Part shown: positions 6,766-23,962 of the stretch, one piece after another
Layout of the letters: each line of letters opens with the position of its first letter
How positions within the stretch are numbered: position 1 is the first letter of the stretch
Origin: Thermoanaerobaculia bacterium
GTDB lineage: Bacteria > Acidobacteriota > Thermoanaerobaculia > Multivoradales > JAHEKO01
Assembly (NCBI GenBank): GCA_945787575.1
Contig: CALZKB010000013.1
Location: forward strand, 1 to 34,716
Reading direction: 5' to 3'
Length of the DNA stretch: 34,716 nucleotides
Program-made: the position numbers and the translations under genes
The notes under the pieces: model-generated
Seen by the model: only the letters and a program-made list of their open reading frames with translations
Databases searched by the model: none
Told to the model about the DNA's origin: nothing

Positions 6766-9081
<2,316 letters not shown>

Positions 9082-12433: not shown

Positions 12434-14059
12434 TCAATCTGCGGCAGCCGCGGCCAATATGACGGCTGAGGTCTCGGCGTTCGCCTTGTAGTAGCCGACG
12501 AATCGATTCGTCTCGTGGGAGTCGTAGGTTTCGAGGTTCCGCGCCCACCGGTAGCCGATAGTCTGGTAGAGGAGTTCTACCGCAATCTGAATCGGGCCGA
12601 CGCCATCCGGAAGTGACACGCGATAGCGAATGCTGTCACCGCCGTCCTGAAAGTCGCCGTCGTCGGCCGCCGCACCCCGAACACCAACCGCATCTTCCGC
12701 CGTCGCCTTGTCGAATCCCAACGGGAGCAGGCGATTGTCCTTCGCGTAGGTGGCACCCGAGAGCAGCGAGGTCGTCACCTCGTTCTTGTAGTCATGGATG
12801 ATCGGCTCGTAGATCTGCACCTGATCAGCGCTCGAGATCTCTTTGTAGTGAGGCTCATAGGCGTCGGGATCGGCGTCGTTGTCGTTGCCGACGATCGAGC
12901 CGTCGGCGTTGAGCGCTCCGGATTCGAAGACCGTCCTGCCGCTTTGATCACGGACCGTGACGTGCAGCCAGGCGCGACGCGACGGATAGGCGGAGGGTAG
13001 CTTGTGGCCGGTCTGGTTGGTGACGCTGATGTCGATGAGAGCTTGGGAGCCCGAGAAGCTGAGGCCGGCGACGCTGACCTGCGCAGCGGCCGACTGCAGA
13101 TGGTCGAGCGTTCGTCGCGCCGACTCCTCGAGGTCCGCCACCGGTGTCGTGACGCCGAGTTCGTCGCGGTACTTGTTGAGCATCTTCAGCATGAAGACGT
13201 TGCCGCCCCGGAAGACGTGCCGAGACACGTTCTCTCGGGGCTCACCGAGCACCGAAGAGATCGGGACAGGCACCTCCACCTCCGGCATGTGGCAGTCCTG
13301 GCAACTCGTTTTCTCTCGGTAAACGCTGTGTTTCCACTCGAGATAGGGGACCTGTTCGGCGAACTCGCCGATGACCTCGCCTTTGCCGTCCGTCGCGGGT
13401 GTAAACAACGTGTGGCAGGTGGCGCACAGCTCGGAGCGCTGGATGTGCGCCCCTTCGCCCGGCACGAGCGTCGATGCGGAATGCATGACCCTTTGGAGGC
13501 CCGCGGAAACCTCGTACGGTCCGTAGACCTTGCCCTGGTTCGGCAGGGAAGGCGTGATCACGTAGCCGCCGTCAAAGCTTCCGTGTTCACCAAGGTTCTC
13601 CTCCGAGATCTGATGACACACGGTGCAGGAGACGCCGTCGGCGGCGAGCTCCTGCTCTTGCGGCTGGAATCCGCTTTCGAAATAGCGAATGAGCTCACCC
13701 GACCCGCCGTTCGCCATGGCGGTCGTCCGAAACATCGGCATGTGGCAGACCGAACAAATGTCCTCGATCTGGTCTTGCATTTGCGGACGGTCCGCGATCT
13801 CCCGGCGCACGGCTGCCTGCCAGTAGGGATCTTTCGCGGCCAGAGCCATCATGGACGCTCGCCAGCTATGGCCGATCGACAACGTCTCGCCGTTGGCATC
13901 GACCATGTTGCTGTGACAGGCGATGCACTTGTCGGATGTGACGAAATTGGGGCCGAGCAGGTCTTGCGCGCTCGCAGGCGCAGCCAGCAGGAAGGCGATG
14001 ATCAGCGCGCCCGACCAGGCGATGCTCGGAGACAACTCTCTCAACCTCTCACCAGCCAT
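12434..14059 (-). CDS. Secreted pentaheme c-type cytochrome
   Basis: About 541 residues with a signal peptide (hydrophobic about 14-30, cleavage near APASAQ). Five CxxCH haem sites are visible at Cys45, Cys102, Cys145, Cys212 and Cys253 (CIACH, CSVCH, CTVCH, CATCH, CQDCH). Further His and Met residues nearby could be axial ligands. Residues about 330-541 lack haem sites and look like a beta-rich domain (TNQTGHKLPSAYPSRRAWLH, then VTVRDQSGRTVFESGAL), as in cytochrome c554-like multihaem families. I chose the ATG at 14059 because GGAGG lies 8 bases upstream and the signal peptide follows. It overlaps the stop of the cytochrome-barrel gene by 11 bases, so the two are translationally coupled. Likely role: periplasmic or cell-surface electron transfer. 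Confidence 0.88.
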   Translation of the reverse strand: MAGERLRELSPSIAWSGALIIAFLLAAPASAQDLLGPNFVTSDKCIACHSNMVDANGETLSIGHSWRASMMALAAKDPYWQAAVRREIADRPQMQDQIEDICSVCHMPMFRTTAMANGGSGELIRYFESGFQPQEQELAADGVSCTVCHQISEENLGEHGSFDGGYVITPSLPNQGKVYGPYEVSAGLQRVMHSASTLVPGEGAHIQRSELCATCHTLFTPATDGKGEVIGEFAEQVPYLEWKHSVYREKTSCQDCHMPEVEVPVPISSVLGEPRENVSRHVFRGGNVFMLKMLNKYRDELGVTTPVADLEESARRTLDHLQSAAAQVSVAGLSFSGSQALIDISVTNQTGHKLPSAYPSRRAWLHVTVRDQSGRTVFESGALNADGSIVGNDNDADPDAYEPHYKEISSADQVQIYEPIIHDYKNEVTTSLLSGATYAKDNRLLPLGFDKATAEDAVGVRGAAADDGDFQDGGDSIRYRVSLPDGVGPIQIAVELLYQTIGYRWARNLETYDSHETNRFVGYYKANAETSAVILAAAAAD

Positions 14060-15137
14060 CGAAGAACCCTCCGTCGAACCAGTCCCAAAGCAGGTAGCTG
14101 ACGATCTGAGTGTCGCGACCCGCGGTTTCGGTGACCGGCACTCGCACGCCGACATTGAGCAGGATGTGTTGGCGAGTGTTGAGCGCTACCTGAAACTGCG
14201 GCACGAGATCGACTTTGGTCTTTGCGCCCGAAGCCAGATCCCGGACCGATAGCACTTCGAGCATCGGTGAGAAGGCACGGCCGAACGGGCCGCCAGTCGT
14301 CCATGTCCTGCCGAACCCCATGCGGAGTCCCACCTCGTCGTCGAAGCCACTGTCGGTCGGGAACTCGGCAAACGCGTGCGCCTGGAAGAAGGCGTCAGCC
14401 GGGAGCAGTCTGCCGTAGGTCATGAATGGCTCCAGGACCGCCGTGCCCTTGCCGAGCTCCTTGTCTTCGTCTCCCGTCGGCAGAATCACCTCGCCGCCGA
14501 GGCTGAAAATGTTGCCGTGGTCGAGATTGGCGTAGATGGTGTGCTTGTAGCCAATGGCGATGTCGCCGACACCGGATTCGTGACCGGCCGCCGTGGAATC
14601 GAGGCTGACAACTGGCACAGCGACTTCCACCATGCCCACCGGGCCGAAGCGCTTCTCGTAAAGGAGCTCCAACTCGAGCGCGTTGCTTTCTCCGTTGCCG
14701 TAGCTGGCGGTCACCACCGCCTCGTCTTCGGGAAAGGCTTTCTCCGTGAATAGGAACCGCGGCAGGTTGAACTCACCGCGCGGCCAGCGCGGGTCGTCGC
14801 AGAAGGTGCGAACGTGGTCGAGGATCTTCTGGATCTCGTCGCCGGTCAGCGCGTCGCCAAAGGCAGGCATCATGCGATCGAAGGCCCGTACCGGGCCACC
14901 CTCATGGATGATGGCGTACCAGTCCGGATCCGGCTCGCGGGAAGCAAACTCGCAGTCCGAGAAATCGGGTACTGGCGTCTCGAAGACAAGGTCTTCTCGT
15001 GCTCCTCCCTTGCCGTCGGCGCCGTGGCAGCTTGCGCAGGCGGTCGCGTAGAGTTCCGCGCTGCTGCTGCTTTGGGCCGACGAGACGGCCGGAGCCAGCA
15101 TCAGCAGCGCCGCGGAGATCAACAGAAGCTGTCTCAC
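14049..15137 (-). CDS. Class I cytochrome c fused to an outer-membrane beta-barrel
   Basis: The product is about 362 residues. The start is the GTG at 15137 with GGGAG 9 bases upstream, and a signal peptide follows (LLLISAALLMLAPAVSSAQ). Residues about 24-115 are a monohaem class I cytochrome c: Cys34-x-x-Cys37-His38 in TACASCHGADGKGG and a probable axial Met90 in RMMPAFGDALTGDEI. Cys62 and Cys113 may form a disulfide. Residues about 125-362 are alternating amphipathic strands with short turns (ALELELLYEKRFGPVGMVEV, IFSLGGEVILPTGDED, LVPQFQVALNTRQHILLNVG) ending in an aromatic strand and terminal Trp, as expected for an outer-membrane barrel of roughly ten strands. The layout recalls Cyc2-type fused cytochrome-porins, but the haem domain is different. 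The stop overlaps the start of the pentaheme cytochrome. Confidence 0.82.
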   Translation of the reverse strand: MRQLLLISAALLMLAPAVSSAQSSSSAELYATACASCHGADGKGGAREDLVFETPVPDFSDCEFASREPDPDWYAIIHEGGPVRAFDRMMPAFGDALTGDEIQKILDHVRTFCDDPRWPRGEFNLPRFLFTEKAFPEDEAVVTASYGNGESNALELELLYEKRFGPVGMVEVAVPVVSLDSTAAGHESGVGDIAIGYKHTIYANLDHGNIFSLGGEVILPTGDEDKELGKGTAVLEPFMTYGRLLPADAFFQAHAFAEFPTDSGFDDEVGLRMGFGRTWTTGGPFGRAFSPMLEVLSVRDLASGAKTKVDLVPQFQVALNTRQHILLNVGVRVPVTETAGRDTQIVSYLLWDWFDGGFFDGW

Positions 15138-22443: not shown

Positions 22444-23628
22444 CTACGGCTCGAAGCCGTCCGAGAGGGTCTTCAGGAAAGCGACCACAGCCTCCTCCTC
22501 CTCCGGCGTCAGTCCGAGGTCACCCAGCTCGTCGCTGTTGACGTTCTCCTCTACCTCGGGTGGTGGCCAGAACTCGACGTCCCGAGCGTTGTAGAAGTGG
22601 ACCACCTGCTCGAGTGACTTGAAGACCCCGTTGTGCATGTAGGCCTTGGGGAAACCGCTGCCCGGTCGAGCATCCACGTTGCGCAGCGTCGGCACCTTGT
22701 GCTTGCCCCAGTTCTCCGCCGCAAGGTCCGACCACTCGGGCCGCGTCATCAGGAAGCCGCCGAGGCCCGGATCAATCCAAGCTTCGCCGTCCGGATTGAT
22801 CGGCGAGCCGTCGTCGAAAAACACCTGGTCCATGTCGTAGAAGGGGTTTTCGGGGTTCCTCGGCACCCCTAGATTGTCGAAAGTGAAGTCGGTGAAGAAA
22901 GGCGCCGGGTGGCAGGCCGCGCACATGGCGTCGCCGTGGAAGAGCTCCATCCCCCAGGCCTCCTGCTCGGTCAGCTCTGCGGCGCCCGCGAGGTAGTGGT
23001 CGAACTTCGACGAGAACTGGTTGACCTCGCTCGATGCCTCGTAGGCGGCGATCGACAGGGCGATGCGATCGTAGGTCCCCTCGACGTCGGCGACGCAGTC
23101 GAGGGAGCCGGGACCCCAGGCCTCTTCGAACAGGTGCGCGTACTTGGCGCCGGCCACGCTCTCGCACACCGCTTGCTTGCTGGGCATGTTCTGCTCGACG
23201 GGGTTCAGGAAGGGGCCCCCGGCCTGATCCGCGGCGGGATTGCCCAGATGCTCTCCGGTGGCGCGCCCATCCCAGAAGTTGCCGCCGATGAACAGCTCCT
23301 CGGCCGCGTCGTAGTGGAAGACCGGGCTCAACGTGGCGTAGGCGGCCGAGGGCGGCTTGCGGTTGCCGAAGCGCTGCGGCACCGCTCCCCGGTAGACCGC
23401 TCCGTGGAGGTTGATCCCGGCGGTTGGACCGGTCCAGCCGACCGTGGGACCGTGGCAGGTGGCGCACGACATTCTGGGCGGATCGGAGATCTTGTCGAAA
23501 AAGATCTCCTTGCCCAACTGCTCCTTCGGGGTCAGGGTGGACGGCGGCTGGCCTGCCAGAGCCGAGGTGGCCCCGAGTACCGCCAAGACGCCCAGGGAAA
23601 CGAAGCAACGACACGCACTTCTTGACAT
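22444..23628 (-). CDS. Di-haem cytochrome c peroxidase / MauG-family protein
   Basis: About 394 residues with a signal peptide (VSLGVLAVLGATSALAGQ). There are two haem c sites, Cys55-x-x-Cys58-His59 (MSCATCHGPTVGWTG) and Cys236-x-x-Cys239-His240 (AMCAACHPAPFFTD). Family landmarks are LGKEIFFDKISD, GRATGEHLGNP, VPTLRNVDARPGSGF and KAYMHNGVFKSLEQVVHFYN. The product should be a periplasmic enzyme that reduces hydrogen peroxide with electrons from a small cytochrome, or a MauG-like oxidase of protein side chains. GGGAGG lies 6 bases before the ATG. The S8 protease gene follows 94 bases downstream; the divergent upstream stretch holds no gene. Confidence 0.92.
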   Translation of the reverse strand: MSRSACRCFVSLGVLAVLGATSALAGQPPSTLTPKEQLGKEIFFDKISDPPRMSCATCHGPTVGWTGPTAGINLHGAVYRGAVPQRFGNRKPPSAAYATLSPVFHYDAAEELFIGGNFWDGRATGEHLGNPAADQAGGPFLNPVEQNMPSKQAVCESVAGAKYAHLFEEAWGPGSLDCVADVEGTYDRIALSIAAYEASSEVNQFSSKFDHYLAGAAELTEQEAWGMELFHGDAMCAACHPAPFFTDFTFDNLGVPRNPENPFYDMDQVFFDDGSPINPDGEAWIDPGLGGFLMTRPEWSDLAAENWGKHKVPTLRNVDARPGSGFPKAYMHNGVFKSLEQVVHFYNARDVEFWPPPEVEENVNSDELGDLGLTPEEEEAVVAFLKTLSDGFEP

Positions 23629-23962
23629 CTCCTACCTCCCTTCCGGCCATGCCGGAATCAGTTTCGGTGGCATCACACCCTTCGGCGGCTCGGCGGTCCG
23701 GGAGCTCTGTCTGGTGTGCGGAGCAGAGAGATTCGGGACCCGTAGCGTTGCGGCGCCGGCTTTCGCCGGCTGTGCCTTTATCGGGGCATAGAAATGCTAG
23801 GCAATTGCTCTGGCCGATCGCAATGCCAGAGGAGGTGGTAGCTGGATCACCCGAACGGGTGGGATCTCGAGATTGGGCACGAGAAAGTCGATATCGGGCA
23901 ACTCACCAAGGGCGTGCGCTCGTTCGCGCGCCTCTTCGAATGGATGGAAACCTCCTCGGCGG
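23629..23962. other. 334-bp stretch without a recognised gene
   Basis: This lies between the peroxidase start and the end of the peptidase gene. It holds a hairpin GCCGGC-TTTC-GCCGGC (23755-23770; on the minus strand the loop is GAAA) that could end the peptidase transcript. On the minus strand about 50 codons (GELPDIDFLVPNLEIPPVRV and around) look protein-like but match nothing I know. Confidence 0.5.

Follow-up and report, generated by a model that had tools for sequence, protein, structure and literature searches.

We found that a short stretch of an acidobacterial genome encodes a cytochrome c domain fused to a barrel in one protein and, in an overlapping gene, a secreted pentahaem cytochrome. 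Both genes lie on the minus strand, which the original prediction left unstated, at positions 12,434-15,137 of the window, the 34,716-nucleotide stretch of DNA analysed here, which makes up an entire contig of a 5.6-Mb MAG. Our computations show the fusion itself, a 12-stranded fold, a conserved partner, an exchange of that partner in a distant clade and a conserved charged lumen. It seems fairly probable that the two genes make one redox unit, in which an outer-membrane-anchored, periplasm-facing cytochrome trades electrons with a soluble exported partner, and this unit probably passes electrons at the inner face of the outer membrane. A wire through the outer membrane is unlikely.

The fusion gene and its overlapping neighbour

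The fusion gene (14,049-15,137, minus strand; 362 aa, GTG start) is supported by its translation, by Pfam and by 178 related loci. As the original prediction had it, and with translation and Pfam in agreement, the 362-residue product carries a signal peptide, a class I haem c domain, a barrel and a terminal Trp. The signal peptide (15,072-15,137, minus strand) covers residues ~1-22, its SSA-QS cleavage having been judged by eye from the sequence, and is followed by the cytochrome c domain (14,799-15,068, minus strand; residues 24-113) with CASCH at residues 34-38 and Met90. Pfam assigns residues 25-111 to cytochrome c (PF13442/PF00034), with PF13442 scoring 35.1 bits against a curated cut-off of 27, and Cys62 and Cys113 of this domain are near-invariant. 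A conserved linker (14,724-14,798, minus strand; residues 114-138, RWPRGEFNLPRFLFTEKAFPED) leads into the 12-stranded barrel (14,082-14,723, minus strand; residues 139-352), which is delimited by AlphaFold2 strands, fold matches and PF13557; the Pfam match to Phenol_MetA_deg (PF13557) spans residues 165-242 only, at 23.4 bits against a curated cut-off of 22. The protein ends in the tail WFDGGFFDGW (14,052-14,081, minus strand; residues 353-362), within whose codons the next gene begins. The fusion is not a chance arrangement, since the Pfam domains exceed their curated cut-offs and neither domain, nor any haem motif, is lost in the relatives.

The pentahaem cytochrome gene (12,434-14,059, minus strand) encodes, by its translation, 541 aa from an ATG start, with a signal peptide and exactly five CxxCH sites (residues 45-49, 102-106, 145-149, 212-216 and 253-257), followed by a C-terminal Ig-like domain at ~323-541. 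Its ATG lies 8 nt ahead of the TGA of the fusion gene, so that the stop of the fusion overlaps the start of the secreted five-CxxCH protein, as had been claimed, by 11 nt (14,049-14,059, minus strand; GGAGGGTTCTTCGATGGCTGGTGA). A Shine-Dalgarno-like stretch, GGAGGG, is found 7 nt 5' of this ATG, inside the fusion codons for DGGFFDGW. A lipid anchor on the pentahaem protein was considered and rejected, a lipobox-like string being present in only 6 of 71 N-termini and most having ordinary signal peptides.

Elsewhere in the window we observe a c-di-GMP-I riboswitch (23,681-23,786, minus strand; 48.4 bits) directly upstream of a gene of the di-haem cytochrome c peroxidase/MauG family (22,444-23,628, minus strand; PF03150), an arrangement that suggests c-di-GMP control of a second cytochrome gene. 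There is also a catalase-peroxidase type gene (6,766-8,964, minus strand), which matches PF00141 in two stretches.

Distribution of the fusion and exchange of its partner

Searching 84,980 species genomes (GTDB) with a profile, we found 178 encoding loci, of which 80 were kept. By record titles they come from several phyla, including Acidobacteriota, Gammaproteobacteria, Myxococcota, Gemmatimonadota, Latescibacterota, Balneolota/Rhodothermota, Thermodesulfobacteriota and others; most are MAGs whose taxon titles may be wrong, and one locus titled Acidimicrobiia (L080) is nearly identical to an acidobacterial copy. Two sequenced strains carry the fusion, Rhodohalobacter sulfatireducens WB101 (L088) and Fodinibius sediminis DSM 21194 (L108), and no relatives were found among the plasmids and viral contigs searched. 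One CxxCH precedes the barrel in 79 of the 80 kept loci, and in the remaining one (L072) the match begins only at residue 41, past the haem site. No unfused form was seen among the 80, although the search patterns sat in the linker and the tail and would thus have allowed unfused barrels to be picked up. Met90 and the CxxCH ends are kept in 65/65 relatives.

Upon searching 396 genomes of the phylum, we obtained ~50 matches that were fused and full-length, and a single match to the barrel alone (L172). The latter was rejected as a separate-gene homologue, as its cytochrome and barrel halves sit in overlapping frames of one locus; the split (L172:5432-6714) would most simply be an assembly frameshift or a gene in decay. 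The kept loci and this second search confirm the fusion as a real, conserved domain order, its homologues not being always separate genes. Two genomes of a related genus (G061, G056; L040:9300-9460 and L041) hold a short remnant of the fusion's cytochrome domain (56% matches), while other members of that genus keep the whole pair. We rejected these cytochrome-only matches as stand-alone cytochromes, given that they are decayed remnants, and they may be a sign of fusion loss by decay. In open-access full texts we found no published description of a cytochrome fused to PF13557 or to a 12-stranded barrel, and the family, which is common, is apparently undescribed.

The conservation of the pentahaem neighbour, also part of the original prediction, was borne out: of the 79 scorable loci, 71 have it directly downstream of the fusion and one more has it as a divergent neighbour. 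In 50 of the 71 pairs an in-frame start for it overlaps the end of the fusion gene, with the same 11-nt overlap in 28. Among 148 relatives of the window's organism, a pentahaem match above 550 bits was always accompanied by the fusion in the same genome. Additionally, pairwise distances among the fusion proteins correlate with those among the pentahaem proteins (r = 0.737; highest value in 2000 permutations, 0.141), a correlation to which shared vertical descent contributes, and all five haem motifs of the pentahaem protein are invariant (57/57). In the other seven loci the fusion has no adjoining pentahaem gene and the same genomes hold no full-length copy, which indicates that this partner is not obligatory. 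No conserved third gene was found among the family loci, other neighbour clusters being opposite-strand shadows or local synteny, and the surroundings of the pair showed no fap-like cargo genes.

The AlphaFold2 model of the pentahaem protein, built from 57 sequences (pLDDT 89.9), matches the penta-haem c552 of T. tepidum (5ze8; Z 25.9, 3.0 Å over 352 residues), which alone stands out among solved structures, the next match having Z 9.4. With five CxxCH in the haem domain and an Ig-like domain it belongs to the pentahaem cytochrome (PHC) family, a group in which Geobacter ExtKL and Gsu2801 have been placed and which has been likened to an archaeal cytochrome nanowire (PMC11976967). Against the ExtKL model NF040886 it scores 38.7 bits, with a curated cut-off of 250, and on its sequence it may be called kin of ExtKL, not an ExtKL. 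Two variants of the protein were also observed: one with a C-terminal extension of ~590 residues that has no Pfam match (L098:11034-14348), and, in four genomes of the phylum, frames of ~940-1050 aa with two tandem pentahaem-matching stretches (G037:C15:329386-331017, G103:C6, G091:C17, G100:C7), which are likely double pentahaem proteins.

In a distant Acidobacteriota clade the partner is a different one. There, in L160-L163, L165 and the frameshifted L172, the gene that overlaps the fusion encodes a ~220-residue protein, not the pentahaem cytochrome, and the pentahaem protein is replaced by a cupredoxin-like protein in 5/6 members of this separate clade. The replacement has an invariant His, a CxxHxWM motif and a carboxypeptidase-regulatory domain. 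We call it cupredoxin-like because its profile matches copper nitrite reductase and blue-copper domains of solved structures (E 4e-4 and 3e-3), with weaker matches to pseudoazurin and amicyanin. A similar protein lies downstream of the fusion in one locus of the main clade (L118), and a third deep group of fusions adjoins neither the pentahaem nor the cupredoxin-like protein. Upon building a tree, we observed that the partner type follows it.

Predicted structure and possible function

The AlphaFold2 model of the fusion, built on 65 sequences, has a pLDDT of 88.8, a pTM of 0.82 and 12 transmembrane-type strands; such a pTM would be hard to reach if the cytochrome and barrel domains were freely oriented. 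The best fold match of the barrel is FapF (5o65; Z 23.3, 2.5 Å over 219 residues, 14% identity), followed by the COG4313 channel 4rl8 (Z 22.3, 2.5 Å over 215 residues) and by KdgM and NanC (Z 19-20), all of which are closed 12-stranded barrels. The expectation that the residues after the haem domain form a closed-type barrel is thereby upheld by both the model and its homologues. The cytochrome domain matches 5mxy with Z 12.6 (VIA-align) and, with its CxxCH and distal Met in a cytochrome c fold, is of class I. For a barrel of 12 strands we computed a backbone radius of 11.3-12.0 Å and a lumen radius of ~6-7 Å, compared to ~10 Å for 16 strands and ~18 Å for the 26-stranded MtrB, so neither the cytochrome domain nor the pentahaem protein fits inside. 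In an even-stranded barrel with its C-terminus inside, an N-terminal domain is periplasmic, and from this topology we infer that the haem domain of the fusion is periplasmic, at the mouth of the barrel.

The conservation of the fusion is concentrated towards that side. Mean conservation is 0.75 in the periplasmic turns and tail against 0.50 in the extracellular loops, and 0.70 in the periplasmic strand halves against 0.59; the contrast between turns and loops is weak on its own, since in barrels the turns on the periplasmic side are frequently better conserved than the outer loops. Most extracellular loops are short and variable, and of the six L2 (0.52) and L3 (0.65) are fairly conserved. The linker (0.80) exceeds every strand and the cytochrome domain, and the C-terminal tail reaches 0.87. 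The gene overlap was rejected as the cause of the conserved tail, as the seven loci without the pentahaem gene keep WDW(F/Y)DGGxFDGW; the tail therefore serves the fusion protein itself. Conserved residues that are polar or charged number 17 in the lumen (8 acidic, 4 Arg/Lys), and there are none on the lipid face.

In the mechanism that we propose, the narrow 12-stranded barrel would seat the fusion in the outer membrane and the conserved linker would hold the cytochrome c domain at the periplasmic mouth. From there the haem domain would dock and exchange electrons with a soluble exported partner, which would be the pentahaem protein here and appears to be the cupredoxin-like protein in the distant clade. 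The barrel could act as an anchor, keeping the cytochrome at the outer membrane, or as a narrow channel filled with water that would let a small solute reach the haem plug, as proposed for Cyc2; a cation would be favoured as that solute because the lumen is net acidic. Electron flow is probably inward, as the organism's own genome has four COX1 (haem-copper oxidase) genes and a search of it for MtrB/PioB (PF11854) found none. The fusion is the only PF13557 protein of that genome.

The original prediction held that the pair may carry electrons across the outer membrane, and of this claim the predicted barrel, the fusion and the conserved pentahaem protein stood, whereas the transfer across the membrane was not supported. 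An electron conduit to or from an outside solid or partner would account for a fused cytochrome-barrel with a multihaem partner, and among the pentahaem family is Geobacter ExtKL, whose gene adjoins that of the porin ExtI (PMC5877670); a link of the family to archaeal cytochrome nanowires has also been drawn (PMC11976967). However, a barrel of 12 strands is too narrow to house a haem protein, the haem domain is periplasmic by topology, and a single haem at one mouth cannot bridge a barrel of ~40 Å without more cofactors. The outer loops, moreover, are short and mostly variable, and no extracellular haem protein or conserved third gene adjoins the pair, which makes the conduit improbable. Reduction of an oxyanion or other small molecule, admitted by the barrel and reduced by the pentahaem protein as a periplasmic reductase fed by the tethered cytochrome, is slightly less probable again. 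Normal selenite and tellurite reduction in Geobacter needs the porin ExtI, and ExtKL is a pentahaem cytochrome of the same wider family (PMC5877670) whose model NF040886 the protein does match, but with a score far below the cut-off; in addition, a net acidic lumen is poor for anions, and some fusion relatives lack any pentahaem protein.

A barrel that is only an anchor or secretion channel, with the cytochrome as an electron sink and no solute function, would fit the amyloid exporter FapF as top structural match. Yet COG4313, KdgM and NanC match nearly as well, meaning that the match reflects the 12-stranded fold; no folded haem protein could get through a barrel of this kind, and the conserved lumen charges suggest more than an anchor, leaving this reading about as improbable as the reductase. 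Stronger, if still doubtful, is the case for a Cyc2-like oxidase arisen by convergence, in which a small reduced metal ion would enter the acidic pore and lose its electron to the haem plug, from where the pentahaem or cupredoxin-like protein would lead the electrons to a terminal oxidase. The haem domain lies N-terminal to the barrel as in Cyc2, where Fe2+ is thought to enter the pore (PMC8406198), the conserved lumen is net acidic, the genome has four haem-copper oxidases, and the distant clade's partner is cupredoxin-like, as is rusticyanin in the acidophile pathway (PMC10654088). Against this, genes for iron or other metals do not recur around the pair, halophilic Balneolota are among the hosts, as are many sponge or sediment MAGs not known as iron oxidisers, and the lumen charges may simply hold the linker.

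The reading that we prefer is thus the redox unit at the inner face of the outer membrane. A broader proposal, which we advance tentatively, is that the family, spread over several phyla, is a second fused cytochrome-porin redox system that evolved independently of Cyc2 and has no kinship with it. In such a system a small reductant would come into the narrow, acidic 12-stranded pore and reduce the cytochrome plug, which would feed exchangeable pentahaem or cupredoxin carriers leading to respiration. The family would widen the range of organisms with outer-membrane redox chemistry, its hosts being aerobic-looking soil, sediment and sponge-associated bacteria and two sequenced strains, with a fixed redox partner. 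The pair is a tractable system for how a one-haem barrel protein works, and the swap between pentahaem and cupredoxin-like proteins makes the idea of exchangeable electron carriers directly testable.

Comparison with known systems

The pair shares with porin-cytochrome complexes (MtrAB, PioAB, OmbB-OmaB-OmcB) a barrel and a multihaem cytochrome that are encoded together. Their barrels, however, have 20-28 strands with a multihaem wire inside, whereas that of the fusion has 12 and no room for one, and the pair is not an MtrAB-type porin-cytochrome complex. The barrel resembles the COG4313/Phenol_MetA_deg channels, with PF13557 above its cut-off and the match to 4rl8, although the solved member is without a cytochrome domain and PF13557 is matched at E 0.001 in only 31/65 fusion relatives. 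FapF likewise has a 12-stranded barrel, but without haem. The pentahaem protein shares its five haems and C-terminal Ig-like domain with T. tepidum c552 and the PHC family, being only ~19% identical to c552, but its gene is paired with that of a cytochrome-barrel fusion and neither accompanies ExtI nor stands by itself.

Iron oxidisers are the main known source of cytochromes that are fused to outer-membrane barrels (Cyc2, Cyc572), and the present family represents a second, unrelated design of this kind. As in Cyc2, one protein combines a signal peptide, a single N-terminal CxxCH haem and then an outer-membrane barrel, and the haem plug is expected at the periplasmic mouth with electrons passing to a soluble periplasmic carrier. 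Cyc2 has a 16-stranded barrel, an AXPXFAR[Q/K][T/Y] motif before the haem site and PXL after it (PMC8406198). The fusion differs in its 12 strands, in a barrel of PF13557/COG4313 type where that of Cyc2 is of OprO/OprP type, and in the overlapping pentahaem gene. Its haem domain is a class I cytochrome c with an invariant Met ligand, and each of the two Cyc2 motifs occurs in 0/65 fusion relatives, in keeping with the earlier view that this domain differs from the Cyc2 type. In layout, then, the fusion is Cyc2-like, but it is not a member of Cyc2.
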